A model generated the notes under the pieces. It was not told the DNA's origin. It did no database searches and saw only the letters and a list, made by a program, of their open reading frames with translations. A DNA stretch of 64,000 nt, from positions 1 through 64,000 of the forward strand of contig JACPOZ010000048.1 of assembly GCA_016191235.1 (NCBI GenBank), in the 5' to 3' direction. A program made the position numbers and the translations under genes. This DNA comes from Gammaproteobacteria bacterium. Its GTDB lineage: Bacteria > Pseudomonadota > Gammaproteobacteria > Ga0077554 > Ga007554. How positions within the stretch are numbered: position 1 is the stretch's first letter; the number at the start of each line of letters is the position of its first letter. Positions 1 through 26,928 of this stretch are shown here, in pieces.

Positions 1-343
1 CCCTCCTGTCTCTCGCTGATGGTTGTTTCGCAACTCCATCTTCTCAGAGATTGGGCGGGATGCCCTGCTTTTATGACTATTATCGCGCTTACGCCCGCAA
101 AATCTGGCTCAATTTACCCACAGATTTTGCTGAGGAGCCAACATTGGGAGCAAGGTTTTTCTAGCCGTCTTTCTCTCGGACAAGTCGCGCCCTTTTATTT
201 CCCTTCTCTTTTGGCTGATACCCCATAAATTTTTCAGCCGCTTCACGTAATCAGATTGTCATATTGCCAGACTATTATTGCCTTCAGGTTACATAACATT
301 CAAATGGCGTCACCACATTTTTAATAGTGGTCGCTGAATTTTA

Positions 344-1129
344 ATGGAGATTTTCTTGATAAAATTATTATGTATCATGGCATGTGTGATTCTTTCTGCG
401 TGCTCCGTAAATCCGTCGACACGTGCCGACAATGAAGAAATTCTCAATAAACTTGGGGAGATGAGCAAGCAGATCAACACCCTGAGCGACGATGTGGACG
501 TGATCAAGCAAGGGTTGTCCACTGTGCTACGCGGCGCACCTGAGGCGCATAAACCTCCCGTTATTACAGAGATTGAACTCGATGACGCCTCCCCTGTGCG
601 GGGTGATGGAAATGCCATGGTGGCAATTGTTGAGTTTTCGGATTATCAATGCCCGTTTTGTGGCCGGTTCCATGCCCAGGTTCTGCCCAGCGTGAAGAAA
701 TCATATATAGATACCGGAAAGATTCGGCATATTTTTCGTGATTTTCCGTTGGATTTTCACCCTCAAGCAAAGAGTGCGGCCATTGCTGCAAATTGTGCGG
801 GTGAGCAGAAGGCCTACTGGCAGATGCACGATAGTTTGTTTTCAAATCAGAACCGCCTTGGCACCGCTTTATATGAAGAGCTTGCTAAAAAGATGAATAT
901 TAATATGGCCTCTTTTCAGGCTTGCCTGAAAGATGCCAAGCAGGCGGAGAAAGTAGAGAAAGACCTATCTTATGGGCAAAGCCTTGGGATAGACGGAACC
1001 CCCAATTTTTTCGTTGGGCGGATTGAAGGCAAGAAGCTTGTGGATGTTAAGCAGATAGTAGGTGCGCAGCCTCCGGCAGTGTTTTACCAAGCGATTGAGG
1101 CTGTTCTGGGAGGCGCGCCCCAAAATTGA
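344..1129 (+). CDS. DsbA-like thioredoxin-fold lipoprotein (CPFC motif)
   Basis: Lipobox (ILSAC) at N-terminus; FSDYQCPFCGRFH thioredoxin/DsbA motif; GTPNFFVG cis-Pro region. Confidence 0.85.
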   Translation: MEIFLIKLLCIMACVILSACSVNPSTRADNEEILNKLGEMSKQINTLSDDVDVIKQGLSTVLRGAPEAHKPPVITEIELDDASPVRGDGNAMVAIVEFSDYQCPFCGRFHAQVLPSVKKSYIDTGKIRHIFRDFPLDFHPQAKSAAIAANCAGEQKAYWQMHDSLFSNQNRLGTALYEELAKKMNINMASFQACLKDAKQAEKVEKDLSYGQSLGIDGTPNFFVGRIEGKKLVDVKQIVGAQPPAVFYQAIEAVLGGAPQN

Positions 1130-1181
1130 TGGCTGTTTTATTTGCAAGATGAGCCGGCAGATTAAGTGATATTCGATTTGT

Positions 1182-2378
1182 ATGCCCATTTATCTTTATA
1201 GCGCCTTGACAGAAAACGGTGTTTTAGCCACAGGCGAGGGGGTTGCCACCTCAAACGAGGCTTTACGCCACGAGTTGGTGGCCAAGGGTCTGTTGGTACA
1301 AGACATCCGTCAAAAGAACGCTGGCTTGGGCTTACGCCGGAAGCGCATCAAGGCGGAGGAGTTTCTGCTATTCAATCAGGAGTTCGTGGCACTCATTCGC
1401 GCTGGTTTGACAATACCAGATGCCTTGAAAATAGCGGCAGATCGTCCTGATAGCCCGATGTTGGCCAGTCTCCTGCGGCACGTGGATGAAGAGGTGCATG
1501 GCGGTGCGCTACTTTCCGAAGCCTGTTCCAGGCATCCCGAGGTGTTCGACGGTCTTTACGTCTCTGCGATAAAGGCTGGCGAAAAGACAGGGGTGCTGGC
1601 GGCGGTTCTGGAGAAATACCAGGCCTATCTCAAGCGCCGGGTTGGTCTGCAGAAAACCATTTCACATGCGATGACCTATCCTGTGTTTTTGTTGCTGGTG
1701 TTAGGTACGGTGCTGGGTGTGCTGTTTTTGTTTGTCATGCCGCGTTTTGTGGCGATGTATACCGATTTTGGCGCTGAACTGCCGCTGCCCACACAAATTC
1801 TCGTTACGTTGGTAAATAATTTGCCTTTTTATTTGCCGGTAGTGTTATTGCTGGGCACGCTCGGATGGTTTGCCATCCAGGCTTGGGTAAAGACTGAGGC
1901 CGGGCGTCTGCGGGCAGATCACTTGAAGGGACGGCTGCCGATTCTGGGGAAGATCTATCAGGATATCGCCATCGTGCAACTGGTGAGGACGCTTGCCACC
2001 CTGCTCTCCGGCGGTACACCCTTGGTCGAGGCCATGCGCATCACGCAGGATGCGCTTACCAATCGCGCCAAGGCGCGTGCGTTGGCGCAGGCCGAAACCC
2101 TGGTGATGGGAGGTCAAAGCCTGGCGTCTGCCATGCACAGTACACAACTCATGCCGGGAACGGCAATAAAGATGGTCGAGGTGGGCGAGGCTTCGGGTGG
2201 TCTTGACGCCATGCTGGAGGAAATAGCCCAGTTCTATGAGGAAATATTGACTAATAAACTTACACGCATGACGGCATTGATCGAGCCTTTATTGATGCTG
2301 ATCATGGGTGTCATGATTGGTGGCACGATCATCGTGATGTATTTGCCGATTTTTCAGATCGCGGACATCGTCAAATGA
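1182..2378 (+). CDS. GspF/PilC-like inner membrane platform protein
   Basis: 398 aa; typical GspF motifs and C-terminal hydrophobic helix IGGTIIVMYLPIFQIADIV. Confidence 0.92.
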   Translation: MPIYLYSALTENGVLATGEGVATSNEALRHELVAKGLLVQDIRQKNAGLGLRRKRIKAEEFLLFNQEFVALIRAGLTIPDALKIAADRPDSPMLASLLRHVDEEVHGGALLSEACSRHPEVFDGLYVSAIKAGEKTGVLAAVLEKYQAYLKRRVGLQKTISHAMTYPVFLLLVLGTVLGVLFLFVMPRFVAMYTDFGAELPLPTQILVTLVNNLPFYLPVVLLLGTLGWFAIQAWVKTEAGRLRADHLKGRLPILGKIYQDIAIVQLVRTLATLLSGGTPLVEAMRITQDALTNRAKARALAQAETLVMGGQSLASAMHSTQLMPGTAIKMVEVGEASGGLDAMLEEIAQFYEEILTNKLTRMTALIEPLLMLIMGVMIGGTIIVMYLPIFQIADIVK

Positions 2379-4093
2379 GCCATCCCTTCAGCTACCGGAA
2401 GTTAGGGGAAATCCTGCTGGACAAGCAGTATGTCAGCCAGCATCAGATAGATGCCGCCCTGACTGGCAAAAATGGCCGGCTCGGCGAGGCGTTGCTTGAT
2501 GAAAGCCGCATTACGCCGGCACAATTGTCCGAGGCTCTGGCCGAACAGTGCGGCTTGCCCTATGTTGATCTGGAGGGATTTGTTATCTCGCCAGATCTGT
2601 ATAATTTGATATCCGCAACGCACGCCTATCAGCATGGGGTTGTTCCCTACCAGAGAGACGGCGAGGTGTTGATCGTTGTTGTTTCTCCCCCCTGCGATAT
2701 TACTTTGGCAGACCACCTGGAGCGTTTGAGCGGCATGCAGGTGCGCTTATTCGCTAGCAGTCCGCAGGCGATTGCAGCGGTGTTGAAGCGCAGCGAAGGC
2801 AATTCCGAGGTACTCAAAGGCGTTTCCGAGGACTTCAAGCTTGCCATCGTCAAGGAGAATGACGATGGCAAGGAGCAATACGTATCACTTGACGCGGCCA
2901 ATGATGATGCCGCAAGCCCGGTTATAAAGCTCATTAACAGCATGCTGTCGGCGGCCATTCAAAAGCGCGTCAGTGACGTGCATATAGAGACCTACGAAAA
3001 GGGCATCTCGGTCAATTACCGTATCGACGGTGTTTTATACCCCGCGACCGATACGCTCGACCGGCGCCATCAGAGCGCGTTGGTGTCGCGCCTCAAAGTG
3101 ATGGCGGAGTTGGATATCGCCGAAAAAAGGGTGCCTCAGGATGGACGCTTCAAGTTGCGTTTTGGTTCGCGTGACATAGATTTTAGGGTATCCATTCTGC
3201 CCAGCGTGTTCGGCGAGGATGTGGTTATCCGAATTCTGGACAAATCATCCATCACCGATGGGATGAAGAATCTACGTCTGGAAAGCCTGGGAATGGTGCC
3301 TGAGATCCTGAAAAAATTTCGCAAGAGTATCCATGAACCCTATGGCATGGTGCTGATTACCGGCCCCACGGGCAGCGGGAAAACGACTACGCTGTATGCG
3401 GCGCTCAGCGAATTGAACACCGGTGATGAGAAGATCATTACTATCGAAGATCCGGTCGAGTATCAATTGCACGGCATCGTGCAGATCGCGGTAAACGAGA
3501 AAAAAAATCTTACCTTTGCCAAGGGGCTGCGTTCCATTCTGCGGCATGATCCTGACAAAATCATGGTAGGTGAAATACGTGATGGAGAAACAGCGCAGAT
3601 TGCCGTGCAATCGGCGCTGACGGGTCATCTGGTATTCACAACGGTACACGCTAATAGTGCCTTCGATGTGCTCGGGCGCTTCAACCACATGGGGGTGGAT
3701 ACGTATAACTTCGTGTCGGCGCTCAATTGTGTCATGGCGCAGCGCCTGGTTCGAATCATTTGTCCGAAATGCAAGCGTCAAACCACGGTTGATGATGGCC
3801 TTCTGGAACTGTCTGGACTCGATCCTGCGCAATATCAAAATCAGGCATGGTACGAAGGTGCCGGCTGCGATTACTGCCACGGTACAGGTTATCGCGGCCG
3901 CGCCGCTGTTACCGAGTTCCTCGCTTTGTCGCCATCCATCCGCCAGATGATCATAGAGCGACGCCCGATCAATGAGATGCAGGCGGCGGCGGTGCAGAAT
4001 GGCATGGTCACATTACGTCAATCCGCGCTGGCGCTGGTGTTTTCAGGTCAAGCGACGTTGAAAGAGATTAATCGTGTCACTTTCGTTGAATAA
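2375..4093 (+). CDS. GspE/PilB-like secretion ATPase
   Basis: Walker A GPTGSGKTTTLYAAL, VGEIRDGETAQIA, tetracysteine CPKC...CDYC zinc motif. Confidence 0.95.
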   Translation: MSHPFSYRKLGEILLDKQYVSQHQIDAALTGKNGRLGEALLDESRITPAQLSEALAEQCGLPYVDLEGFVISPDLYNLISATHAYQHGVVPYQRDGEVLIVVVSPPCDITLADHLERLSGMQVRLFASSPQAIAAVLKRSEGNSEVLKGVSEDFKLAIVKENDDGKEQYVSLDAANDDAASPVIKLINSMLSAAIQKRVSDVHIETYEKGISVNYRIDGVLYPATDTLDRRHQSALVSRLKVMAELDIAEKRVPQDGRFKLRFGSRDIDFRVSILPSVFGEDVVIRILDKSSITDGMKNLRLESLGMVPEILKKFRKSIHEPYGMVLITGPTGSGKTTTLYAALSELNTGDEKIITIEDPVEYQLHGIVQIAVNEKKNLTFAKGLRSILRHDPDKIMVGEIRDGETAQIAVQSALTGHLVFTTVHANSAFDVLGRFNHMGVDTYNFVSALNCVMAQRLVRIICPKCKRQTTVDDGLLELSGLDPAQYQNQAWYEGAGCDYCHGTGYRGRAAVTEFLALSPSIRQMIIERRPINEMQAAAVQNGMVTLRQSALALVFSGQATLKEINRVTFVE

Positions 4094-5030
4094 TCTGTTT
4101 GACAGGATTACGCCACGCTCTAAAACCGTGTTTGGGATCGGCATCGGCAGGGATCGTCTTTCTGCCGCGCATGTTGTTACTACAAAACAGGCACGCCATA
4201 TCGAACGGATCAAGCAGATAAATCTGCCTTTCACGCTATTCAGCGGCACCCCTACGCCCGAGATAGGCCATGCGCTTTCATCCTTATTGGGCGAGTTATG
4301 TGGTGAAGTCAAGCGGTCGCACATCCCCATCCAGATTGCATTGCCTGACCCGGTGGTGAGCTTGCGTGTCTTCGAGTTGGATGCCATTCCTAAAACCAGA
4401 AAAGAGCAACTGGCGCTTGTCCACTGGCGGTTCAACAAGGAGTTGAATTTGGCGGGGCGCGCCATTGAATGCAGTTGCCAGCCTTTGGGCGTGAATAACG
4501 ACAAACATCTCTTGTTGGCGATGGCTATCGATCAGGCTTGGTTGCTGTGCCTGAAGGAGGCGTGCCGGGACGCTGGTGTGATCAGTACGGTTATAGACAT
4601 GGCGGCGTGTTATCGCTCTAACCGTTTTTACGAACGCTTCTCTTGCGATGGCGCCGATGTGGTTGTTATTTCTTTGGATGACGACGTCTGGACACTATCC
4701 ATTTCGGACGCGCAAGGTCGGTTGCGTTTTGTCCGCTCGCGTTGGCGTGAAGCTATGCCGGAGCGGACGAGGGAATATCATGAAATAGCCGCCGAGTCAG
4801 AAAGGATGGTTCGCATATATACGCATGCCGCCCCGGGGAGAATCATAAAAAATCTACACACGGTAGGTAATGCCCAGGATATCTCTGGAGTCGCGGATTT
4901 GCTGGACCAGCACATGGCAGGGAAATGTATCAGGGTGGCCGGAGGAGTCGAGTTCATGTCTAAGCAAGGCATTTCCGGAAATACTGTAGACAGCATGGTG
5001 TCAACCCTGTCGGCGGCGATGTTGCGATGA
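4074..5030 (+). CDS. PilM/GspL-like actin-fold assembly protein
   Basis: Position between GspE and PilN/PilO-like genes; FGIGIGRDRLSAAHV N-terminal actin-like start. Confidence 0.65.
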   Translation: MSLSLNNLFDRITPRSKTVFGIGIGRDRLSAAHVVTTKQARHIERIKQINLPFTLFSGTPTPEIGHALSSLLGELCGEVKRSHIPIQIALPDPVVSLRVFELDAIPKTRKEQLALVHWRFNKELNLAGRAIECSCQPLGVNNDKHLLLAMAIDQAWLLCLKEACRDAGVISTVIDMAACYRSNRFYERFSCDGADVVVISLDDDVWTLSISDAQGRLRFVRSRWREAMPERTREYHEIAAESERMVRIYTHAAPGRIIKNLHTVGNAQDISGVADLLDQHMAGKCIRVAGGVEFMSKQGISGNTVDSMVSTLSAAMLR

Positions 5031-5569
5031 AAATCAGAACAAATTTTTCGACGTCATCCGCCGGTATGGTGCCGCGGATCATGATGATTTTATGGGTGGC
5101 CGCGCTTCTAGCCGCGCTGCTAATCGCTTGGATGGCTATGCAAACATCCCAATTGAAACAGACGAAACTGGATTTGGAGCATCAGTTGTCCAAACTCCAA
5201 AACAGGCACGTCGCTGGGATACCGAAAGTATTTCCCCGCCAGGAAGAGCTTGCCACGTTAAAAGGGCGTATAGCCGCCATTTCATCCATATCAAATAATC
5301 GGGAAGGGTCGCTATCTGCATTCCTGAGAAAAATAGAGTTGTTACTCCCTGACGAAGCCTATCTTGTGACTCTTCATTACAAGGGCGACACCAGGGAGGC
5401 TCAGATCACGGCTGAGGCTGGCAGCGCAAAAATACTTACTGGGTTTTTACGTGATCTTGAAAAAGAGAAGGAATTCCTTGAAGTACTGTTGACAAAACAG
5501 TCGCAGCGCACATTGAACGATAAACAGATTGTTCAGTTCGATCTGCGTATAAAGGAGCGTCTTTCATGA
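5027..5569 (+). CDS. PilN-like bitopic assembly protein
   Basis: 180 aa, single N-terminal TM helix plus coiled coil; ATGA overlaps with neighbours. Confidence 0.7.
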   Translation: MKIRTNFSTSSAGMVPRIMMILWVAALLAALLIAWMAMQTSQLKQTKLDLEHQLSKLQNRHVAGIPKVFPRQEELATLKGRIAAISSISNNREGSLSAFLRKIELLLPDEAYLVTLHYKGDTREAQITAEAGSAKILTGFLRDLEKEKEFLEVLLTKQSQRTLNDKQIVQFDLRIKERLS

Positions 5570-6135
5570 TGGCGACGCATCCTTTTTCGGAAAACATATT
5601 GTATTCACTACGCCATCCCCTGATCAAGGCGGGGATGGTGGCTAGTGGCTGCGCCATAACCCTGGCCATTGTGGTTTGTTTTGGATATTGGATGCCCGTA
5701 CGTAGCGACATCAATAGTCTCGCGGAATCGGTTAATTACGAACGTAAGCGGATTATTGATGATACGCGATCCGTACAAATCTATAGCGCATATTTGAGCG
5801 CTACAAAACAACTTACGGCCATTGATAAAAAAATTAACAGCCCCGCCGGGCATGCTGATCTTGTTAATAACATTGATAATCTCGCAATACACAGAAAAGT
5901 AGCTATTATTTCTGAATCCTACGATGAGGGTAAGGAAAGGAATGGTTATACACCGCTTTATATGGAGTTGGCATTACAGGGAGACTATCAGGGGCTGAGG
6001 GAGTTTCTTGTTGATATTCGTAGCCTGCCAACCTGGACTGTTGTTGGAGAGGGTTCGATAAGCCGCTTGGCAGGACAGCGGGATTTGGTTAAGGCGCAAT
6101 TGCGCTTAATAACTTATCACAAGACGGGCAGATGA
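5566..6135 (+). CDS. PilO/GspM-like bitopic assembly protein
   Basis: 189 aa, single N-terminal TM, coiled coil, ferredoxin-like C-terminus; operon context. Confidence 0.6.
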   Translation: MMATHPFSENILYSLRHPLIKAGMVASGCAITLAIVVCFGYWMPVRSDINSLAESVNYERKRIIDDTRSVQIYSAYLSATKQLTAIDKKINSPAGHADLVNNIDNLAIHRKVAIISESYDEGKERNGYTPLYMELALQGDYQGLREFLVDIRSLPTWTVVGEGSISRLAGQRDLVKAQLRLITYHKTGR

Positions 6136-6764
6136 AACGTTACAAGGAAATTGCCATCAGGCATCGCAATGCAATATTGCTAGTGCTGGCATTTATCTTA
6201 ATGGTCGTAAACGTATTGAATTGGGGGGGCTGGAGTCAGGCCAATTCACAGGAAGGGCCTGAAAGGGGAACGATGGCAGGGGAATTTCAGGTTTCTGATT
6301 TTCAGATAAAAGATCTGAATTTTCCTGCGGAACAAGATGGGGAAATTGGCCGTGACTTGTTCTATCCAGTTTTTGAGGAAGAGTCAGAACCTGTTAATGA
6401 GATGGCGTCCATTGCGGTGGATAATGAAAATATTAAACAAATAACTAATGCCGATATACCCCCCCCGATTTCGCAAAAAACTCCTGAACAACTTGAAGAG
6501 GAGATCGTGCGGTCTGACTTGGCTAATTTTAAATATGTTGGTTCTATTTGGCGCGGAGGACAAGGCCAGGCGCTTTTATTGAACACGGACAAGCGTTATT
6601 TTGTCTTTTCTGGAGACAAGGCCGGTAGCCGCTTTGTCGTTGAAAGGATAACGACCGACGCGGTCTCTCTAAGAGACCCTGCCACAAATGTGACGGCTCA
6701 AATACTAATATCCGGAGGGGCCTCGATAAACGCGGCTCAAGAAATAAGTGATGTTGAAAGATAG
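6132..6764 (+). CDS. PilP/GspC-like bitopic periplasmic protein
   Basis: N-terminal TM, then KYVGSIWRGGQGQALLLNTDKRYFVFSGD, reminiscent of the HR/PilP beta-fold; precedes secretin. Confidence 0.5.
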   Translation: MKRYKEIAIRHRNAILLVLAFILMVVNVLNWGGWSQANSQEGPERGTMAGEFQVSDFQIKDLNFPAEQDGEIGRDLFYPVFEEESEPVNEMASIAVDNENIKQITNADIPPPISQKTPEQLEEEIVRSDLANFKYVGSIWRGGQGQALLLNTDKRYFVFSGDKAGSRFVVERITTDAVSLRDPATNVTAQILISGGASINAAQEISDVER

Positions 6765-6770
6765 CGTCGG

Positions 6771-9053
6771 ATGAAACCGATGAAAAGAAGAATATGGTGT
6801 TTCATGGTTGTCGCGTTGTGCCTCTTGGTCGCGGCTTGTGCCGGTCCAATTCGCAAAGCGGAGATTTATGAAGATAAACAGGAATGGATAAGCGCTGTCA
6901 TTGAATACCGAAAGGCCTATAACGATGACCCAAGGAATGTGGAGTATAAGGCACGCCTAAAGCATGCTGAATTCAAGGCGGCTGATTATTATTACCGTCA
7001 AGGGATGCTGCTTTTAGAGCGGGAAAAGATCGATGAATCCATTGTTCAGTTTCAGCAGGGTTTGACGGCAATGCCGGGTGATGAGCGGTTAATGCAGGCA
7101 ATGAACAAGGCGCTTGCAAAAAGAGAGGCCAATAACCTTTATCAAGAGGGAGTTCTGATAAACGGCGCGGGTAATGTCGGCGAGGCGAAGCGTATATTTC
7201 AGAGGGCCATAAATGTCTATCCTGATCACAAAGCGGCATTAGAGGCCCTTGCCAATATTGAAAATAAAACCCCTGAGGAGCGTGATGGTGAGAAGTTTTC
7301 GTTGACTTCAACATCTCCCATATCGCTGAATTTCCGTCAAACCGATATGCGCTCTGTTTTTGAGTTCGTTGCCAAGTCTTTTGGCATAAATATTATATTT
7401 GATGAGGGTATCAAGACCATATCCCCTGTCACAGTATTTGCCAAAGATGTTTCTTTCGAGCAAGCTTTGGCCCTTATTAATGTGGCTACCAAGACTTTCT
7501 ATAAAAAAATCAGCAAAAATACCATCATTGTTGTGCCGGATTCGAAGGACAAGCGTGGTCAATATGAGGATCATGTGATGCGCACTTTTTATTTGAGCAC
7601 TATCCGGGCCAAGGAGGTGGCGGATATCCTGAGGGGTGTGATGACAATCAGGAAAATCATCGTCAACGAACAGTTAAATACACTGGTTGTCCGTGATACC
7701 GATGAGGTTATCAGGCAGGTGGCAAAGATTATTGATATCAACGACAGAAAGCCCGCTGAAATAGTTTTGGAAGTTGAAATTCTGGAGATGAATCGCACCA
7801 AGGCCGAGCGTCTTGGCCTTGATCTTGGGTCATATCAAATCAGCGCTACGGTTCCGTCAGCCATCGCTCTGAGTGGATCCATTAGCGGCGCGATTGAGAA
7901 AGCCTCCTTACTTACACTTCCTTCAGCGACCTTCCGTTTTTTTAAGCAGGATGTAGATGCCAGGACGCTTGCCAATCCCAAAGTAAGGGTTGTGAACGGA
8001 AAATCCGCAAAAATCCATATCGGTGACCGTGTTCCATTGCGTGTTTCCACTATCATCAATACGACGGGGCAGGTGAACACAACCTATGACTACAAAGACA
8101 TCGGCATAAAGCTTAACGTTGAGCCAACCATAAATCTGGATAACTCATCACTAGTAAAGCTTAGTTTGGAAGTGAGCTCCCTGGGGGCGAATCTGGGAAC
8201 GGCGACAGAGCCGGCATACCGTATTGGCACCCGGAATGCTGAGACACTTATGCTGTTGCGTGATGGTGAAACGGCGATTCTAGGTGGTCTTATTCGTGAT
8301 GAGGATCGCAAAACGGTAGTAAGGATTCCATTGCTGGGAGACATTCCTGCCGCAGGTTCTCTATTTAGTTCCTACGATATGTCAAAAGAGCGCACCGACG
8401 TATTGCTGACGATCACTCCTCGTGTTGTGCGAGGCTGGGATCTGCCCGCCAAGGAAGCTCGCCAATTTTATTCTGGAACGGAAGATAAATATCTTGATCA
8501 AGCCCCCTTTCAGAGCCTGGCTTCTCCATCATCGGCTGCGGCAAAGGAGAATGCCGGGATTCAGGAATCCCCGCAGGTGCCGGTTAATGAAAATCCGGCT
8601 GTACCCCCATCGTCGGGTCAGTCGATTGCGCCAGGTATTGGGGGGAATGTTATCCAGTCTCCCGCTCTCGTCTTTTCTAAGCCAGCTTATATGGCGATCA
8701 ATCAAGACGAGGTGGATGTTCAGCTTCTTTTTGACAACCCCTCAAAAAACAGGGAGATCGCGACGGAAATACAATTCAATCCAAAGGTTCTGCAATTTGT
8801 CGGGAGTGATGCGGGTGAATTCAATTTTGGGTTTTTCCAAGCCGACAAAAATGAGGCGGGAGATGTTGTACGTCTAAGCGCCGGGTTTGCAAATGATGCT
8901 CTCTCAAAAGAGAAAGGTATCCTGGCAACCCTCCGGTTCCGTGCGTTAAAGCCAGGTGTTTCCGCCCTGACGTATGGTGTCTCATCGGTCAAAAATGCAG
9001 CGGGTGACATCATTAGTCCGCAGTCAAATATCTCTCGTGTCATTGTACGGTAG
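6771..9053 (+). CDS. Secretin lipoprotein: TPR + N-domains + secretin + C-terminal cohesin-like domain
   Basis: Lipobox LVAAC; TPR-like repeats; secretin signature VVRIPLLGDIPAAGSLFSS...RTDVLLTITPRVV; cohesin-like C-terminus VDVQLLFDNPSKNREIATEIQFNPKVLQFVG...ILATLRFRALKPG. Confidence 0.88.
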   Translation: MKPMKRRIWCFMVVALCLLVAACAGPIRKAEIYEDKQEWISAVIEYRKAYNDDPRNVEYKARLKHAEFKAADYYYRQGMLLLEREKIDESIVQFQQGLTAMPGDERLMQAMNKALAKREANNLYQEGVLINGAGNVGEAKRIFQRAINVYPDHKAALEALANIENKTPEERDGEKFSLTSTSPISLNFRQTDMRSVFEFVAKSFGINIIFDEGIKTISPVTVFAKDVSFEQALALINVATKTFYKKISKNTIIVVPDSKDKRGQYEDHVMRTFYLSTIRAKEVADILRGVMTIRKIIVNEQLNTLVVRDTDEVIRQVAKIIDINDRKPAEIVLEVEILEMNRTKAERLGLDLGSYQISATVPSAIALSGSISGAIEKASLLTLPSATFRFFKQDVDARTLANPKVRVVNGKSAKIHIGDRVPLRVSTIINTTGQVNTTYDYKDIGIKLNVEPTINLDNSSLVKLSLEVSSLGANLGTATEPAYRIGTRNAETLMLLRDGETAILGGLIRDEDRKTVVRIPLLGDIPAAGSLFSSYDMSKERTDVLLTITPRVVRGWDLPAKEARQFYSGTEDKYLDQAPFQSLASPSSAAAKENAGIQESPQVPVNENPAVPPSSGQSIAPGIGGNVIQSPALVFSKPAYMAINQDEVDVQLLFDNPSKNREIATEIQFNPKVLQFVGSDAGEFNFGFFQADKNEAGDVVRLSAGFANDALSKEKGILATLRFRALKPGVSALTYGVSSVKNAAGDIISPQSNISRVIVR

Positions 9054-9534
9054 GAAATACAAAGTCCGGGGAGTCACCTTCGTCGAGTTGCTGGTGACGT
9101 TGGTGATTCTTTCGATTCTCGCTGCGGTTGCATTGCCTTATGCGGAAATTACGGTGCGCCGCAACAAGGAGATAGAGTTGCGCCAGGCGCTGCGTGACAT
9201 GCGTGGTGCCATCGATCGTTTTCATCTTGATTGGGAAACTGCAAAAATATCGAAGCTGAATAATGCCGTTAGCGAAGATGGTTACCCAAAAACCTTGCAA
9301 GTATTGGTTGAAGGCGTGGGTGCTGATCAGGCCAAAGGGGGGAAGATTAAATACTTGCGCCGTATTCCTGCCGACCCGTTCTCCGACCCAGGTAAGCCAT
9401 CACTGGAGCATTGGGTGCTGCGCGGCTATCAGGATGCGCCCGATGCCACCTCGTGGGGAGGAACAGATGTTTACGATGTACGGTCAGCAAGCCGTCGCAA
9501 GGCGATTGATGGCAGCTTCTACAAGGATTGGTGA
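8974..9534 (+). CDS. Type II pseudopilin (true start probably downstream of 8974)
   Basis: Prepilin motif RG|VTFVELLVTLVILSILAAVALP. Confidence 0.8.
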   Translation: MVSHRSKMQRVTSLVRSQISLVSLYGRKYKVRGVTFVELLVTLVILSILAAVALPYAEITVRRNKEIELRQALRDMRGAIDRFHLDWETAKISKLNNAVSEDGYPKTLQVLVEGVGADQAKGGKIKYLRRIPADPFSDPGKPSLEHWVLRGYQDAPDATSWGGTDVYDVRSASRRKAIDGSFYKDW

Positions 9535-9535
9535 C

Positions 9536-9913
9536 ATGCGCCGCGATATTGTCCACAGCGCGCGCGGCTTTACCTTGGTGGAGCTGATGGTAGTGCTGGT
9601 TTTGATTGTCATTCTCGCCAGTCTTGCAGCACCCTTGGTAACAAGTTCAATACAGCGCGGCCGTGAGGCTGTGCTCAGGGAAGATTTGTTGGTGATGCGA
9701 AAAGCGATTGATAATTATTATGCGGATACGGGAAGTTATCCCGAGGATATGAAGCAACTGATGGAAAAACGTTATCTGAGGCAAATCCCGGTGGATCCTT
9801 TAACCGAACGAAGTGATACGTGGCGTGAGGTTCGTGATGATGCGGGGATTATTGATATAAAAAGCGGAGCGGATGGGAAATCCGCCAATGATGTGTCATA
9901 CAGCGAGTGGTAG
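9536..9913 (+). CDS. Type II pseudopilin, GspG-like
   Basis: In-frame ATG at 9536; prepilin motif RG|FTLVELMVVLVLIVILASLAAP; DPLTERSDTW loop. Confidence 0.85.
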   Translation: MRRDIVHSARGFTLVELMVVLVLIVILASLAAPLVTSSIQRGREAVLREDLLVMRKAIDNYYADTGSYPEDMKQLMEKRYLRQIPVDPLTERSDTWREVRDDAGIIDIKSGADGKSANDVSYSEW

Positions 9914-9953
9914 TTTTTTTATTCTAATCTGGTTTGATGTGAGGGGCTGATCT

Positions 9954-10388
9954 ATGAAAAAGAGCATGAGATGGTCTTTGGGTTTTACCATGATGGAGTT
10001 GCTGATTGTTCTGGTTATTATCGGATTGTTAGCGGCTTTGGTAGGCCCTGCGTTGTTCCAGCGCATCAATCCGGCAAAACAATCGGCGGCGCGCAGCCAG
10101 ATTGAAAATTTCATGACAGCTCTCGATACCTATTTTGTCGACAACGGACACTTTCCAACGACGCAACAGGGTTTTTTGGCGCTGCGTGTAAAGCCGGAAG
10201 GCGATGAAAAGTGGGCGGGGCCTTATCTTAAAAAAGACGTACCAAATGATCCATGGGGAAATCCATACCAATACCGTGCTCCTGGACACAATGGTGGCTA
10301 TGATATTTTATCTCTGGGCGCGGATGGTAAAGAGGGTGGCGAAAATGAAAATAAGGATATCAATAGCTGGGAGATCGACAAGAAATAG
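9954..10388 (+). CDS. Major pseudopilin GspG
   Basis: LG|FTMMELLIVLVIIGLLAALVGP; DPWGNPYQYRAPGHNGGYDILSLGADGKEGG calcium-loop signature. Confidence 0.95.
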   Translation: MKKSMRWSLGFTMMELLIVLVIIGLLAALVGPALFQRINPAKQSAARSQIENFMTALDTYFVDNGHFPTTQQGFLALRVKPEGDEKWAGPYLKKDVPNDPWGNPYQYRAPGHNGGYDILSLGADGKEGGENENKDINSWEIDKK

Positions 10389-10893
10389 CCAGGCTGGATT
10401 TACCTATGTAATGGTGCTGGTCGCGGTTGTAATAACCGGCCTGATGGCCGGGGTTGCAGCCACCATCACATCGCGGGTTATGCAGGCCGAGAGAGAGACG
10501 GAATTGCTTTTCCGTGGCCTGGCGTATCAGAATGCGATAAAAAGCTATTATCAGGCCGGCAAGCAACTTAATACGTTTACCTTTCCGCGCTCGCTAAACG
10601 ATCTACTGAAAGACCCGCGCTTTCCTGGCAAGCGTCACATTCGTGCCCTGTATGCGGACCCGATGGGTAGTGGTGAGCGGGAGTGGCGTGTAATCCGCGC
10701 AATTGATGGCGGTATCACCGGTGTTGTCAGCTCAAGCAAACAAAAATCTTTAAAGACCGCCAACTTTCCCGTCGGTCTGGAATCGTTGGCGGGCAAGAAA
10801 TCCTATGCGGAATGGATTTTCCTGTATAACGCCCCCGCAGCAATCCAAACCCCACGTCCCGTCATGCCACGTATACCTGTGCAGCGGAAATAG
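10345..10893 (+). CDS. Minor pseudopilin lacking Glu+5
   Basis: In-frame ATG at 10345; AG|FTYVMVLVAVVITGLMAGVAATI prepilin-like helix. Confidence 0.75.
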   Translation: MKIRISIAGRSTRNSQAGFTYVMVLVAVVITGLMAGVAATITSRVMQAERETELLFRGLAYQNAIKSYYQAGKQLNTFTFPRSLNDLLKDPRFPGKRHIRALYADPMGSGEREWRVIRAIDGGITGVVSSSKQKSLKTANFPVGLESLAGKKSYAEWIFLYNAPAAIQTPRPVMPRIPVQRK

Positions 10894-10942
10894 ATGATTT
10901 GGGTATCCCCTTTGCCCCGTAAAAACCCCTGATATTTTTGTA

Positions 10943-11056
10943 ATGGTGAAGGGCATCCTCAAAAAGCATGGCTTCCCGCCGGACTTGCAGGACGAAGCGA
11001 CCAAGACGGTGCTGGCGCAGGCGGAGCTGCTATCGGCCATGTGGGCGGTGGCATAA
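10943..11056 (+). pseudogene. C-terminal remnant of type I restriction subunit HsdR (DUF3387-like)
   Basis: Translation [37 protein letters not shown] resembles HsdR C-termini; no upstream HsdR body. Confidence 0.7.
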
Positions 11057-11210
11057 GGATAGATAGACAGCGTTTGCCGATCCACGGGAGCAGCCTTTCA
11101 GAATCCTATGAACAAGGCGTTGTCACAGACGGCGCGAAATTCGGCTACTACTGCTACGCTGCTTAGACGGTACTGTGCAAGCTACTGAGCGACTGTCATT
11201 GAGAAATAAT

Positions 11211-11430
11211 CCTAAAAACGGCAGTTGACCGCTTCTCTGGACGGCTAGCAATATGTTTTGTGAGACTTTATCGCGCCCTGCGGGTTCACCTGTTTGGTGA
11301 AGCCCGCTACGGGGCGGATTGCACGATTTTCAGTGCGCATGGCAGCGTTGCAACTCCTTGGAATGGAACAACCATTCCGCGTCGTCGCCGAAAACCGCAC
11401 ACTCCACCCCGTCCAACTGCCGTTTTTAGG
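11211..11430 (-). mobile_element. MITE-like element, copy 1 (220 bp)
   Basis: 17-bp TIR CCTAAAAACGGCAGTTG...CAACTGCCGTTTTTAGG; second copy at 52777-53012; flanks ATAAT/ATGAT. Confidence 0.85.
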
Positions 11431-11440
11431 ATGATGCCAG

Positions 11441-12208
11441 TCATGATCCCCCGCCAAAATACCCCAGCCGTGCGGAGAGCCGCTTGCCGGCGGTAATCGT
11501 CACCGCTATCCATTCGTCACTGCGCCGTGCAATGGGTGCGGAGACTGATAGGCCTGCGACCATTTTGCCGCTGGCATCCAGCACCGGCACGCCGATACAG
11601 CCGACGCCGGTTTCGGCCTCTTCGTTATCCAGGGCGTAGCCTCGTTCCAATGAGCGTTTTGCTTCATCCCATAATTGCTCGGGCTGGGTAAGGGTGGTGG
11701 GGGTGTAGGCGGGTAGGCGGGTGCGCCGGGCGTAGGCGAGGCAGTCTGCTTTTCCGTCAAATGCAAGAAACAGCTTGCCCACCGCGGTCACGTGCAGCGG
11801 TGCATGGCCGCCGATGACTTGCTCGACGCGGATCATTTTGTGGCTGGAGACCCGTTCCACGTAGACCACTTCATCGCCGTCGCGCACAGTGAGGTTGACG
11901 GTTTCGCCCAGTTCGCTGCGCAGCCATTCCATGATCGGCAAGGCCTCGCGTTTAAGGTCCACCCGCTGCTCCACCCGACTGGCAAGGCCAAGCAATTTGA
12001 TGCCCAGCCGGTAGTGACTGGCCTCGGTGCGCTCTACCAGCCCATGCTCGCCTAATGCCGCCAGAATACGGTGGGCTGTGGAGGGATGTAGCCCGGTTTC
12101 GGCGGAGAGAATCTTCAGGCTGACGGGGCCGTGCGCTTGGGCGATGGCGTCCAGCAGTTGGGCCATGCGGTCTATAACTTGTATGGAGCTGGTAGCTTTT
12201 TCTTTCAT
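11441..12208 (-). CDS. IclR-family transcriptional regulator
   Basis: N-terminal wHTH LKILSAETGLHPSTAHRILAALGEHGLVER and IclR effector domain. Confidence 0.93.
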   Translation of the reverse strand: MKEKATSSIQVIDRMAQLLDAIAQAHGPVSLKILSAETGLHPSTAHRILAALGEHGLVERTEASHYRLGIKLLGLASRVEQRVDLKREALPIMEWLRSELGETVNLTVRDGDEVVYVERVSSHKMIRVEQVIGGHAPLHVTAVGKLFLAFDGKADCLAYARRTRLPAYTPTTLTQPEQLWDEAKRSLERGYALDNEEAETGVGCIGVPVLDASGKMVAGLSVSAPIARRSDEWIAVTITAGKRLSARLGYFGGGS

Positions 12209-12300
12209 TTCACATTATGAAAACTATTACATATTGCGAGATAATATACGGGAGGATACTATATTTTCAACATTCTTTTGCATAACTTAGGAGCGTCGCC

Positions 12301-14508
12301 ATGGGTACCCCAACCGCAACCAGCATCCCGGCTTTCTGTGAAGGCATTCAATACTTCGCGGAAGCCCTGCCCGGCTTTGAGGAATATGCCGCACATCCGG
12401 TCATCGCCGCAGGGCAGAACGCCGTGGCTGATCCCAGCGATTCGCGCGCGGTATTCCAAACCCTGCTGGGGGCGGATGCGCTACGCTATCTCACCCTGCA
12501 AATGACGGGCTCCAAGGCCTCCGGCCATCCGGGTGGATTTGCCAGCAGCGCCGAGGCCTACACCTCGCTGGTGATGCTGGGACACACCAATATCGTCACA
12601 GAGGTGGGACACCATGCCCCCGGTTTTTACAGCGCCATGTTCATGGATTCCTCGCTGGAGGAGATGGGCATCAATACGGTGCAAGACCTGCGTGCGCGCT
12701 TCCGCGAGAAGCACGGTTTGCTGGGTCACCTCTCTGGCGCCATCCCCGGCATTCTCGCGCCTGCGGGGCCACTGGGGCAGGGCCAGCATTTCGCCATGGC
12801 GGGGGCTATGCTGCACCCCGGCACGCTGTTCCCCTTCACACTCGGTGATGGCGGCATGGGCGAGCCGTACATCCTGAATGCCATGATGCACTTCCACGTT
12901 GCTTTTCCCACTATCACTAACTTCCTGCCGGTGCTGATCTGGAATGGCTACAGCCAGGAGCATCACGCAATGGTCTCGTTGTTCACCGACGAGGAGATGA
13001 TTGCCTACTGGAAGGGGCACGGCTTTGAGTCCGTGTATCTGGTGGATGCCAAGAATTTTGATGACGCGGGCCAAAGCGGTGCGTTTGTGGATAGTACCCG
13101 CTTCTCGATGGGCAATCGCCTGGCGTTCACCCGTGCCATGCTGGAAACCATGAATGAGGCGGCACAGTCCGCGCTGGGCGGCAAGCTCACGGCCTTTATT
13201 GTCAAGCAGCTCAAGGGCTCGGGGGTGCATGCGCTGGGCGCGAAATCACACAACCTTTATCCCCAGCACACACTTGAAAACGTCGATGTCGTGGAAGGAC
13301 TCAAGCGCCGCGCACTTGCCCCGCAAGCGTGGCAGATTGTGCGTGACAACTTCAGCCGCGCTGGTGGCGGTCCTGCCGCGCGCACCGCAGTGACAGAATC
13401 CGTGCTGGCGCTGACGCCGATCACCCATTTGCCCTTGCAGGAGTTTGCGCTGGGCGAGAACAAGCCGCCGACCACGGCGATGGGTGCGATGGTGGGTGCG
13501 GTAGGCAAGCAGGACGCGCGCTTTCTGGTGACCAATGCCGACGGCAACGAGGCTTCCGGTATCGGCAACATCAATGAGGCATTGAAGATTCGTCATCCCA
13601 CGGAAGATGCCCTGTATCACCAGACGCCTAACGGCCAGGTCTACGAGCCGCTCAACGAAGACGCCTGCGCGGGGCTGGCGGTGGGGTTGGCGCTGTTCGG
13701 CAGTCGCAGCCTGTGGTGCTCCTATGAGAGCTTTGCCATCAACGGCCTGCCGATTCTTCAGACCGTGACCCAGGCCATGGCCGAACTGCGCCGCAAGACA
13801 CCCAGCGTTGTCACGCTGTTTACCGCTGGCGCATTGGAGCAGGGCCGTAACGGCTGGACGCATCAGCGCCCGGAGATCGAGGCCTACTTCGCCGCCATGA
13901 TGCGCAACGGCAACCTGTTCCCGGTGTTCCCGGTGGACGCCAACATGATTCAGGCTGCCTATGCCTGGGCGCTGGACAGCTATAACAAGGGCATCATCAT
14001 CACGGCATCAAAGAGCCCGTTGCCGGTCCGCACCACGCTCGAACAGAGCCGCCGTGCGCTGGCGGACGGTGCCATCACGCTGTTTGAGCATTCCGGTGTG
14101 AAGACAGTGGTGTTCGCGGTGGTGGGTGACATGATCCTGCTGCCCGTGTTCGAGGCGGCGGAAAAATTGAAGGCTGCGGGCTTTGGCGTGAAGATCGTCG
14201 CCGTGGTCAACCCGCGCCGCCTCTATCGCCCCACCGATGTGGCCTGGGACACCTGTTCGGAGCCGGACAATCTGTTCCTCGACGACGACCATTTCAACGC
14301 ATTGTTCGATGGCGATGTTCTGTTGGGCGTGAGCGGCGGACCCAGTGGCACGCTGGAACCGGTCATGTTGCGTACCCGCGCGCCGAAGCGTGATGTGTTC
14401 GCCTGGAAGCGCGGCGAGACCACCGCCTCGCCCGCCGAGATCATGAGCTTTAACGGTCTGTCGGGAGATAATCTGGCGCAACGGGCACGGGATCTGGCAG
14501 GGGTTTGA
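12301..14508 (+). CDS. Phosphoketolase/transketolase-like thiamine-diphosphate enzyme
   Basis: 735 aa; GDG...NG ThDP motif (LGDGGMGEPYILNA...LIWNGYS); phosphoketolase-like CSYESFAINGLP and NGWTHQRPEIEAY. Confidence 0.75.
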   Translation: MGTPTATSIPAFCEGIQYFAEALPGFEEYAAHPVIAAGQNAVADPSDSRAVFQTLLGADALRYLTLQMTGSKASGHPGGFASSAEAYTSLVMLGHTNIVTEVGHHAPGFYSAMFMDSSLEEMGINTVQDLRARFREKHGLLGHLSGAIPGILAPAGPLGQGQHFAMAGAMLHPGTLFPFTLGDGGMGEPYILNAMMHFHVAFPTITNFLPVLIWNGYSQEHHAMVSLFTDEEMIAYWKGHGFESVYLVDAKNFDDAGQSGAFVDSTRFSMGNRLAFTRAMLETMNEAAQSALGGKLTAFIVKQLKGSGVHALGAKSHNLYPQHTLENVDVVEGLKRRALAPQAWQIVRDNFSRAGGGPAARTAVTESVLALTPITHLPLQEFALGENKPPTTAMGAMVGAVGKQDARFLVTNADGNEASGIGNINEALKIRHPTEDALYHQTPNGQVYEPLNEDACAGLAVGLALFGSRSLWCSYESFAINGLPILQTVTQAMAELRRKTPSVVTLFTAGALEQGRNGWTHQRPEIEAYFAAMMRNGNLFPVFPVDANMIQAAYAWALDSYNKGIIITASKSPLPVRTTLEQSRRALADGAITLFEHSGVKTVVFAVVGDMILLPVFEAAEKLKAAGFGVKIVAVVNPRRLYRPTDVAWDTCSEPDNLFLDDDHFNALFDGDVLLGVSGGPSGTLEPVMLRTRAPKRDVFAWKRGETTASPAEIMSFNGLSGDNLAQRARDLAGV

Positions 14509-14592
14509 AGTAAGGTGTATAAAGTGTCAGACGCAGGCCCGGTGTGCTGCGCCTGATACATCGCTCCATCGACGTCTACGAAAGGAAATCAG

Positions 14593-14874
14593 ATGAAAAA
14601 ATTGTTCTCCGCAATTGTGTTCTCTGCGCTGGCCGTCCTCAGCATTAACGTTTCTGTTGCCGCGCCCGCTCCCGCCCAGGCAACCACCACGGAAAAGCTC
14701 GACATCAACACAGCCACCGAACAGCAGTTGACCACCTTGTCCGGCGTGGGTGAAGCCAGGGCCAAAGACCTTATTAAGGGGCGCCCTTACAAGGCCAAGG
14801 ATGATCTGGTGAAAAATAAAATCATTCCCCAGTCGGTCTATGACAAGATCAAAGACAAGATTATTGCCAAGTAG
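14593..14874 (+). CDS. ComEA-like helix-hairpin-helix protein, exported
   Basis: Signal peptide; LDINTATEQQLTTLSGVGEARAKDLIKGRPY HhH motif. Confidence 0.88.
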   Translation: MKKLFSAIVFSALAVLSINVSVAAPAPAQATTTEKLDINTATEQQLTTLSGVGEARAKDLIKGRPYKAKDDLVKNKIIPQSVYDKIKDKIIAK

Positions 14875-14902
14875 AAGTGATTCGGCAATAAAGTAGCCAA
14901 AG

Positions 14903-14957
14903 GTAGGGTGGGTTCGCGCTTTTTGCGCAACCCACCCAGCGTTGCGTAGCAACACAA
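14903..14957 (+). repeat. Dispersed repeat with internal inverted repeat (GGGTGGGTT...AACCCACC), copy 1
   Basis: Reverse complement of 49303-49358 is near-identical (GGGTGGGTTnGCG...GCGnAACCCACC...AGCGTTGnGTAGCAACACAA). Confidence 0.75.
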
Positions 14958-14983
14958 TAGCTTGAGTTTCCTAAGGCCGCGCA

Positions 14984-16291
14984 ATGACCACAACCAAAAT
15001 CATCGTCCTTGACGACGACCCCACCGGTTCACAGACCGTTCACGGTTGCCTGTTGCTGACGCGCTGGGATGTCGATGCCCTCAAAGAGGCATTGGCCGAT
15101 GCCGCGCCGCTGTTCTTCGTGCTTACCAACACGCGAGGCATGAGTGCCGAGCGTGCTGCGGAAGTGACGCGTGAAGTGTGCCGCAATCTGAAAATAGCGC
15201 TGACTGGGACAGGTATCAACCCGATGCTGGTGAGCCGCTCCGATTCAACGCTGCGCGGTCACTACCCGGTCGAAACCGATGTGATCGCCGCAGAGCTAGG
15301 GCCGTTCGATGCGCATTTTCTTGTCCCTGCTTTCTTCGAGGGCGGGCGCGTTACCCGTGACAGCATCCATTACCTCAAAGTGAATGGCGTGGATGTCCCC
15401 GTGCATGAAACCGAGTTTGCACGCGACTCGGTGTTTGGCTACCGTTACAGCTACCTCCCCGACTATGTGGAAGAAAAGACGGGCGATCGTACTTCAGCAG
15501 ATGAGGTCGAGCGCTTTCTGTTGGCGGATATCCGTCATGGCGTGCTTGACAGGTTGCTGGCCCTGGAAGGCAATCGTTGTGGCGTAGTGGATGCTGAGAA
15601 TTACGACGACCTGGCGCGCTTCACGGCGGATGTGCGTGTGGCGGCAGGTCAAGGCAAGCGCTTCCTGTTCCGTAGCGCGGCGAGCCTGGTGAAGGCATTG
15701 GCTGATTTGCCACCCCAGCCGGTGGCTGCCGAGGCAATGAGCCGTTTCACGCGCAATCACCGTCCCGGTGCCGTGGTTGTTGGTTCTCACGTAGACAAGA
15801 GCAGCCGCCAGTTGGCACGGCTGTTGGAGGAGGCCGGCGTTACAGGTGTTGAAGTCAATGTGCGGCGGATTCCGGCGGAGCGCGACATCGTGTTGAAAGA
15901 CACGTTAAAGCACATCAGTGCAGCGTATGAAGCTGGCAAAACAGCGGTGGTGTATACAAGTCGCGGCGAGGTGCAACTCCCCGATCAGGAATCACGCCTG
16001 GCCTTTGGCGAGGCCGTATCTGCCCTGTTAATGGACGTGATACGCAACCTGCCACAAGAACTGGGTTTCCTGATCGGCAAGGGCGGCATCACCTCCAACG
16101 ACATGCTGAGTTCTGGCCTTGCATTACGCGCCGCTCGCGTGCTCGGCCAGGTCGCGCCCGGTGTTTCGGTGGTGCGCTGCCCTGCCGATCATCCGCGCTT
16201 TCCGGATATGCCGGTGGTGATTTTTCCGGGGAATGTGGGGGATGACGATACGCTGGCGCTGGTATGCCGACGGTTTATGTTGCCCGGTTGA
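14984..16291 (+). CDS. Four-carbon acid sugar kinase family protein (DUF1537)
   Basis: VLDDDPTGSQTVHG N-terminus, SRSDSTLRGHYP, C-terminal GKGGITSND and FPGNVGDDDTL. Confidence 0.92.
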   Translation: MTTTKIIVLDDDPTGSQTVHGCLLLTRWDVDALKEALADAAPLFFVLTNTRGMSAERAAEVTREVCRNLKIALTGTGINPMLVSRSDSTLRGHYPVETDVIAAELGPFDAHFLVPAFFEGGRVTRDSIHYLKVNGVDVPVHETEFARDSVFGYRYSYLPDYVEEKTGDRTSADEVERFLLADIRHGVLDRLLALEGNRCGVVDAENYDDLARFTADVRVAAGQGKRFLFRSAASLVKALADLPPQPVAAEAMSRFTRNHRPGAVVVGSHVDKSSRQLARLLEEAGVTGVEVNVRRIPAERDIVLKDTLKHISAAYEAGKTAVVYTSRGEVQLPDQESRLAFGEAVSALLMDVIRNLPQELGFLIGKGGITSNDMLSSGLALRAARVLGQVAPGVSVVRCPADHPRFPDMPVVIFPGNVGDDDTLALVCRRFMLPG

Positions 16292-25530: not shown

Positions 25531-25580
25531 CGCCAGTTAATTGGCGATAATTGACAAAAAATGTCAATAACATATATAAA
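25531..25580 (+). promoter_or_regulatory. Predicted promoter/operator of rloAB: CGCCAgttaatTGGCG dyad and TTGACA-AAAAA-TGTCAA dyad with TATATA/TATAAA -10
   Basis: TTGACA at 25551 within a perfect 6-bp-arm dyad; TATA-like -10 at 16-18 bp spacing. Confidence 0.5.
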
Positions 25581-25643
25581 ATTAATGTAATATTGCTTGA
25601 TGGCTGTAATTGTGGCGTTTTTATGAATTTAAAGGAGGTGATC

Positions 25644-26924
25644 ATGTTGATTGAGTTCAGCGTGACGAATTTCAGGTCTATCCAATCGCGGCAAACATTA
25701 AGTTTGGCCAAATCCAAGCTTAAGGAATCCAAGGGGTTAGATCAGAACACCTTTACGCCAAGTGAGTTGCCTGGTTTGGGTTTGCTCAGATCGGCCGCTA
25801 TCTACGGCCCTAATGCGGCGGGTAAATCCAATCTGCTACTGGCGTTGCGCACTATGAAGGATATCGTCGTGGAGTCGGCCACCGAATGGCAGCGGGGCGA
25901 TGAAGTGCCAGTGAGTCCCTTCAGGCTTGATCCTCAATCTGCAATGGCGCCCACGGAGTTCGAGGTGATCTTTATCGCGGAGGGGGTGCGCTATCAATAT
26001 GGTTTTTCCGCGACACGGGTGCAGATTATCGAGGAGTGGCTGATCGCCTATCCCAAAGTGCGAGCCCAGCACTGGTTCGCCCGACGTTGGAATGAAAAGA
26101 AGGGGGGGTATGACTGGGATATGGGCAGCGCCCTGCAAGGACAAAAGCAGCTATGGGAGGATTCTACTCGTAGTAATGCGCTGTTCTTGTCTACAGCTGT
26201 TCAGTTAAACAGCCAGCAGCTACAGCCCGTTTATGATTGGTTCAAGAAAACATTGCGCACAACAAGCATTGCAGGTTGGGGGCCAGGTTTTACTGCGTCA
26301 TTGTGTGGTGAGTCTGTAAACAAGGCCAAAGTGTTGGCGTTTCTTAGAGCGGCGGATATTGATATTCAGGATGTGTTAATTGAGAGAAAAGTGTTCGATG
26401 CCAGCGATCTGCCCAAGGGTATGTCGGATGAGATCAAGGCAATGATTGTCAAAAAGATGGAAGGGAAGGAGGTGCTTGCTGAATTGAATACGGTGCATCA
26501 GGATTCCACCGGCAAGCCCATCGCTTTTGATTTTGAGGAGGAGTCCGATGGCACCCAAAAGCTCTTTTCGTTTGCAGGGCCGTGGCTGGATACGCTGAAA
26601 AATGGCTATGTGCTTTTCATTGATGAGTTGCACGACAACCTGCACCCCAAACTGGTGCAGTTTCTGGTGGAGCTGTTCCACAGTGACGAAACCAATCCCA
26701 AGAATGCCCAATTGGTGTTTACTACTCATGAAACCTCCATCCTGAATCAGGAGGTGTTTCGCCGAGATCAAGTGTGGTTCTGCGAGAAGAGCGATCATCG
26801 TTCCACGACCCTTTTCCCGCTGACGGACTTTAGTCCTCGCAAGGGTAGGGAAAATCTTGAGATGACCTATCTTGCCGGGCGTTATGGCGCTTTGCCTTAT
26901 GTACGCAAGTTAAAAGCAGGCTAA
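25644..26924 (+). CDS. RloA-like AAA15 ATPase (AbiL/PARIS-type defence ATPase)
   Basis: MLIEFSVTNFRSI N-terminus, Walker A YGPNAAGKSNLL, GYVLFIDELHDNLHP Walker B, FTTHE; extended SD AAGGAGGTGATC next to ATG. Confidence 0.88.
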   Translation: MLIEFSVTNFRSIQSRQTLSLAKSKLKESKGLDQNTFTPSELPGLGLLRSAAIYGPNAAGKSNLLLALRTMKDIVVESATEWQRGDEVPVSPFRLDPQSAMAPTEFEVIFIAEGVRYQYGFSATRVQIIEEWLIAYPKVRAQHWFARRWNEKKGGYDWDMGSALQGQKQLWEDSTRSNALFLSTAVQLNSQQLQPVYDWFKKTLRTTSIAGWGPGFTASLCGESVNKAKVLAFLRAADIDIQDVLIERKVFDASDLPKGMSDEIKAMIVKKMEGKEVLAELNTVHQDSTGKPIAFDFEEESDGTQKLFSFAGPWLDTLKNGYVLFIDELHDNLHPKLVQFLVELFHSDETNPKNAQLVFTTHETSILNQEVFRRDQVWFCEKSDHRSTTLFPLTDFSPRKGRENLEMTYLAGRYGALPYVRKLKAG

Positions 26925-26928
26925 CACC

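Follow-up and report, generated by a model that had tools for sequence, protein, structure and literature searches.

The Pul (OxpG) system of Geobacter and Pelobacter is an atypical type II secretion system (T2SS), which comprises pulGPQF, pulE and the pseudopilins PulG, OxpG and TklG (PMC3543383, PMC10599522, PMC6013743). Geobacter needs this system to secrete the multicopper protein OmpB (PMC3543383, PMC10599522). The C-termini of the secretins studied so far are periplasmic and are bound there by pilotins, which are periplasmic lipoproteins (PMC9239104, PMC10499894). Secretins with fused accessory domains are already known; LspD of Legionella, for example, carries a SPOR domain, which binds to the cell envelope (PMC9239104). 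Cohesins are docking modules familiar from bacteria that digest cellulose. They are also known outside cellulosomes (Peer 2009, as cited in PMC10066038 and PMC8542988). No cohesin on a secretin is described in the literature searched; a mention in Peer 2009, which reviews cohesins outside cellulosomes, is possible.

The operon and its predicted secretin lipoprotein

We analysed a stretch of 64,000 nucleotides of gammaproteobacterial DNA (the window), which contains a T2SS-like operon on the forward strand. The first gene encodes a DsbA/thioredoxin-like lipoprotein (344..1129; Pfam Thioredoxin_4, E 1e-32) and is followed by genes coding for a GspF/PilC-type inner-membrane platform protein (1182..2378; Pfam T2SSF, E 2e-52; TIGR02120, 296 bits), a GspE/PilB-type assembly ATPase (2375..4093; T2SSE, E 5e-130), a PilM-type protein (4074..5030), whose family profile matches the PilM structures 3jc8 and 2ych (E 8e-7 and 1e-4, respectively), PilN (5027..5569; Pfam PilN, E 4e-8) and a PilO/GspM-type protein (5566..6135; Pfam PilO, E 0.001, below its cut-off). 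The next gene (6132..6764) codes for a protein with one transmembrane segment, a linker and a small C-terminal domain, which we regard as a putative GspC/PilP protein by its position and weak profile matches of family members. The secretin gene (6771..9053) is followed by two pseudopilin genes, one with an N_methyl motif and GspG-like (9064..9534), the other matching N_methyl and TIGR01710 (9545..9913; E 2e-14). The GspG-type major pseudopilin (9954..10388; GFTMMELLIVLVIIGLLAA) and a minor pseudopilin-like protein (10354..10893) were assigned by operon comparison, and the start codons of all pseudopilin genes except that of the major pseudopilin are uncertain. Since an ATPase, a platform protein, PilM/N/O-type proteins and pseudopilins are encoded together, the operon has the composition of a T2SS/type IV pilus-like machine, and the product of 6771..9053 is its predicted outer-membrane channel, the machine being of the kind described as "atypical type II secretion". 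Its gene composition resembles the published description of the Geobacter Pul/OxpG system, and multicopper oxidase genes are found beside the operons of nine relatives of the window's locus.

The N-terminal part of the ATPase matches the MshEN domain (E 8e-17) and the c-di-GMP-binding NCBIfam model NF053729 above its cut-off, and the machine may thus be controlled by c-di-GMP. The DsbA-like lipoprotein is close to the Rcas_1661 (seleno)lipoprotein family, with a score below the family cut-off; in one related locus (L047:14367), its counterpart is located downstream on the opposite strand. The core operon occurs a second time, again complete, on another contig of the same genome (C72; L038, positions 1-16000), and the secretin of this paralogous operon is 67% identical over its full length and also possesses the cohesin domain. 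Elsewhere in the window, an AbiL-like gene pair (25551-27600 and 27764-30418; AbiLi, 336 bits; AbiLii, 108 bits) adjoins a type III restriction enzyme, and together they form a small anti-phage defence island.

The secretin gene starts with ATG and encodes a protein of 760 amino acids. Full-length conservation, with 86-87% identity within the genus and 67% to the paralogue, argues that 6771..9053 is not a chance open reading frame. Its product begins with a lipoprotein signal (6771..6839), whose lipobox LVAAC contains Cys23; this cysteine is nearly invariant (at least 90% of the homologues in an alignment of 54 sequences), and the secretin is thus predicted to be a lipoprotein. The signal is followed by a TPR domain of helical repeats (residues 27-166; 6849..7268), which was recognised by Pfam TPR_2 and TPR_14 and by helices in the AlphaFold model, and by an N0 domain (residues 184-256; 7320..7538), which has weak to moderate matches to FecR_C, GspD N0 and STN and is seen in the model. 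The sole N1-type domain (Secretin_N; residues 269-324; 7575..7742) matches PF03958 with an E-value of 4e-9 and is also present in the model. The secretin core (residues 330-553; 7758..8429) matches PF00263 (E 4e-38), and its Foldseek matches are GspD and PilQ structures (best E 2e-17); together with the N-domains, this places the protein in the secretin superfamily. The Pfam ranges are 71-103 for TPR_2, 186-254 for the FecR_C/STN-type N0 domain, 270-329 for Secretin_N and 392-554 for Secretin. A disordered linker rich in proline, serine and alanine (residues 576-627; 8496..8651; pLDDT below 50) leads to the C-terminal domain (residues 630-760; 8658..9050), which forms a beta sandwich with a pLDDT mostly above 85 in the full-length model. 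Pfam and AlphaFold concur on this order, which agrees with the succession of lipobox, TPR, N-domains, secretin, linker and cohesin proposed in the initial annotation. The TPR-secretin-cohesin architecture is presumably listed in domain databases.

Like the classical GspD/PulD secretins, which are the best Foldseek matches, the protein possesses N0, N1 and the secretin core; in contrast to them, it is predicted to be lipidated, carries an N-terminal TPR domain and a C-terminal cohesin, and has one N1-type domain instead of N1-N3. Its scores lie well below the thresholds of the models for both classical families, with 169.8 bits for GspD (TIGR02517; equivalog cut-off 351) and 150.3 bits for PilQ (TIGR02515; subfamily cut-off 284). 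The combination of a lipid anchor and TPRs resembles the TPR pilotins PilF/PilW and TadD, which are lipidated proteins that assist secretins; here, however, the TPR domain is fused to the secretin itself, and the match to TIGR02521 is weak (E 0.0016). LspD also has an extra domain fused to a secretin, but its SPOR domain is N-terminal and binds peptidoglycan, whereas the cohesin of the window's secretin is C-terminal (PMC9239104).

Identity and distribution of the C-terminal cohesin domain

By family sequence profile and predicted fold, the C-terminal tail of the secretin is a genuine cohesin. Taken alone, the tail of the window's protein scores 21.9-22.6 bits against Pfam Cohesin, just below the cut-off of 24.1, and a phmmer search of the PDB with this single sequence returned noise only, so that a family profile was required. 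The doubt arising from this score was removed by three observations: PF00963 is matched by 38 of 45 homologous tails (best E 7e-12); a profile of the tail family retrieves cohesins from the PDB, both cellulosomal and non-cellulosomal (best E 3e-11), and no other fold at E < 0.01; and a Foldseek search with the predicted model of the tail places cohesins on all of ranks 1-50 in the PDB. Most of this tail-only model has a pLDDT above 90 from tail residue 81 onward. The cohesin-like nature of the tail, as initially annotated, is thereby borne out, and the structure prediction that had been chosen in advance as a check gave a cohesin fold and no different one. An S-domain or a generic Ig fold was ruled out by the structure search. 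In fold and core sequence, the domain resembles the cohesins of known structure from cellulosomal and non-cellulosomal proteins (2xdh, 1aoh and NagJ, 2jh2), but in contrast to these it is located on a secretion channel, occurs in one copy per chain and lacks a dockerin counterpart.

A scan of GTDB species genomes yielded 98 relatives of the secretin, 80 of which were kept; they belong to the Burkholderiales, other Pseudomonadota and the Acidobacteriota. The order of the operon is preserved in nearly all loci of sufficient length, many of which have a GspG-like gene in front of the GspF gene. A cohesin tail is present in 56 of the 80 relatives and absent from 24, including five that are truncated at contig ends. 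Cultured carriers include Methyloversatilis universalis FAM5 (L095), whose divergent tail matches the family cohesin model with 84 bits, and Duganella sp. Root1480D1 (L064). Among 143 genomes sampled across the class, only three carry a cohesin-tailed secretin, two of which belong to the genus of the window. On a quick tree built from the secretin core without the tail, cohesin-bearing sequences are found in both deep halves, Acidobacteriota included, and the presence of the domain requires around five changes, at least three of which are forced by branches starred in the tree. The simplest reading of this pattern is that the cohesin tail is an old part of the protein that was lost several times, with gains being possible as well. 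As only about five changes accompany its retention across a range that extends from Acidobacteriota to Betaproteobacteria, the domain is probably under long-term selection. It is dispensable for the machine, because several lineages have lost it or never acquired it, as seen in 19 untruncated loci.

The distribution also bears on a role in assembly, in which the cohesin would bind the TPR domain or a neighbouring subunit, thereby aiding multimerisation of the secretin and replacing the pair of S-domain and pilotin. Such a role is suggested by the finding that the last residues of the secretin RcpA bind in a groove of the TPR pilotin TadD (PMC10499894), and one chain carries both the TPR domain and the C-terminal module here. 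However, the two occur without each other, which weakens the idea: the 19 untruncated loci have the TPR domain and no cohesin, and Acinetobacter apis (L119) has a TPR-less secretin whose tail is weakly cohesin-like. A cohesin was also found on a protein of the GspC slot (see below), and we consider an assembly aid to have little probability.

Dockerins, glycans and the compartment of the cohesin domain

The initial annotation suggested that the cohesin could anchor a substrate, a pseudopilin tip or a surface protein, and a search for dockerin partners had been set beforehand as a check. In the dockerin form of this reading, the channel would display the cohesin on the outside of the cell, where secreted or surface proteins with a dockerin would be captured. 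In favour of this, the domain is a true cohesin and a few carrier genomes do encode dockerin proteins: the Holophagales and related Acidobacteriota genomes L124, L125 and L128 have one each, which in L124 (Holophagales) sits on an SGNH-type hydrolase, and L131, in the genome of another carrier of a cohesin-tailed secretin (L051), encodes a beta-helix-like protein whose C-terminus resembles a dockerin. A real cohesin-dockerin pair is possible in the Holophagales and related Acidobacteriota; in the genomes of this lineage with detected cohesins (G058 and G063), the secretin bears the only one. On the other hand, no dockerin above the cut-off was detected in the window's own genome, the assembly of which is 78.6% complete. 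Dockerins were searched for in 30 cohesin-positive and 24 cohesin-negative genomes, and five of the latter were dropped because the secretin is truncated at a contig end. At E <= 0.01, dockerins were found in 9 of the 30 genomes with a cohesin-tailed secretin and in 5 of the 19 with an untruncated cohesin-less homologue (Fisher p = 1); the outcome is unchanged by two of the 19 that carry another, cohesin-bearing secretin. The 21 carrier genomes without a dockerin at this threshold include the closest relatives of the window. A dockerin-based partner was thus rejected, dockerins being equally common with and without the cohesin tail. Surface anchoring likewise found no support, since the C-termini of known secretins are periplasmic (PMC9239104, PMC10499894) and the tail would have to traverse the outer membrane; we therefore regard dockerin anchoring as very improbable.

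A search for cohesins in 31 genomes (27 with cohesin-tailed and 4 with short-tailed loci) gave matches above the Pfam cut-off in 21 genomes and 24 matches at E <= 0.001, 23 of which are in secretin reading frames; no cohesin was found on any non-secretin reading frame in the operon loci fetched. The 24th match is located in a reading frame of 349 amino acids (L175:3487-4533; contig C407 of G038, the genome of L045), in which a linker rich in proline and alanine connects a GspC-slot protein (E 6e-15 against the family HMM) to a C-terminal cohesin (E 6e-25; 48.9 bits against Pfam). This is a single case in one metagenome-assembled genome, without other secretion genes nearby, and no further fusion of this kind was found in 369 genomes of the class and the 31 carrier genomes. 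As the genes for the GspC-slot protein and the secretin are neighbours, the fusion may be what a deletion between them left behind. The N-terminal transmembrane segment together with the C-terminal cohesin would place the module in the periplasm, which is the compartment common to the secretin and the GspC/PilP-slot protein. The fusion is a strong hint, although not proof, and we infer by analogy to known secretins that the cohesin is located in the periplasm. Some members of the slot protein family weakly match the T2SSC (E 0.001), PilP (E 9e-4) and GspC models, with a best E of about 1e-3. The slot proteins lack a PDZ domain and mostly have 150-210 amino acids; a search of the PDB with their profile gave only chance matches to CsgF.

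Cohesins are related to carbohydrate-binding beta sandwiches, and the domain could instead tether the channel to peptidoglycan or another glycan, fixing it in the cell wall like the SPOR domain of LspD or GspA/GspB. The attachment of T2SS secretins to peptidoglycan varies among bacteria and can rely on a domain carried by the secretin (PMC9239104), a protein partner for the cohesin is not visible, and 15 loci have a gene for a lytic transglycosylase (SLT) upstream of the operon (e.g., L107:3250-3990). Characterised cohesins, however, bind proteins. Column conservation, a crude measure taken without coordinates, showed that the conserved positions are mostly those of the core and revealed no exposed patch conserved across the family. 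A tether seems quite unlikely, though somewhat less so than an assembly aid.

A possible role in client recruitment

We tentatively favour, with a little less than even confidence, that the cohesin acts as a dockerin-independent recruitment module in the periplasm, which holds a client near the secretin channel. According to this model, the N-terminal lipid and the TPR domain would together act as an integral pilotin and anchor the protein in the membrane, as suggested by the lipobox and by the TPR pilotins PilF and TadD. On the periplasmic face of the outer membrane, the cohesin would sit on a flexible linker of around 50-70 residues, and, judging from the topology and stoichiometry of known secretins, 12-15 copies might encircle the channel. 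They would retain a periplasmic client close to the channel without the involvement of a dockerin, and the likeliest client would be a folded secretion substrate or a pseudopilus loaded with substrate. The model thus comes near to the wider suggestion of the initial annotation, in which the module may hold a substrate or a pseudopilin. That the cohesin surface has no positions conserved throughout the family fits, but does not prove, clients that are specific to each lineage.

Genes beside the operons point to possible cargo. Next to the operon of nine relatives, which cluster within one part of the tree, between one and three genes that run in the same direction encode secreted multicopper oxidases (L052:13821-22220, L091:14577-21632, L115, L122, L086, L110, L113, L077 and L073); most of them are in tandem and some of the proteins exceed 1000 amino acids. 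These oxidases are plausible candidate cargo, in keeping with the multicopper protein OmpB that the Geobacter Pul system secretes. In contrast to the Geobacter Pul/OmpB system, the window's genome yielded no multicopper oxidase of this family as far as it is assembled (78.6% complete). The paralogous operon is adjoined by two convergent genes for secreted FGE-sulfatase-like proteins (L038:3716-4858 and 4879-5808), which are cargo candidates only.

In the classical T2SS, the PDZ domain of GspC has been credited with substrate recruitment. A broader proposal, which we consider doubtful, is that the cohesin is an interchangeable, dockerin-independent periplasmic receptor of the type II-like machine, which is carried by the secretin or, in a single lineage, by the GspC/PilP-slot protein and recruits substrates as the GspC PDZ domain does in classical systems.

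How a T2SS recognizes folded cargo is a long-standing question. A module that is tethered to the channel and is present or absent among close relatives amounts to a natural experiment and could readily serve as bait in pull-down assays. If the recruitment model is true, the roles of cohesins would extend beyond the binding of dockerins and beyond the exterior of the cell.
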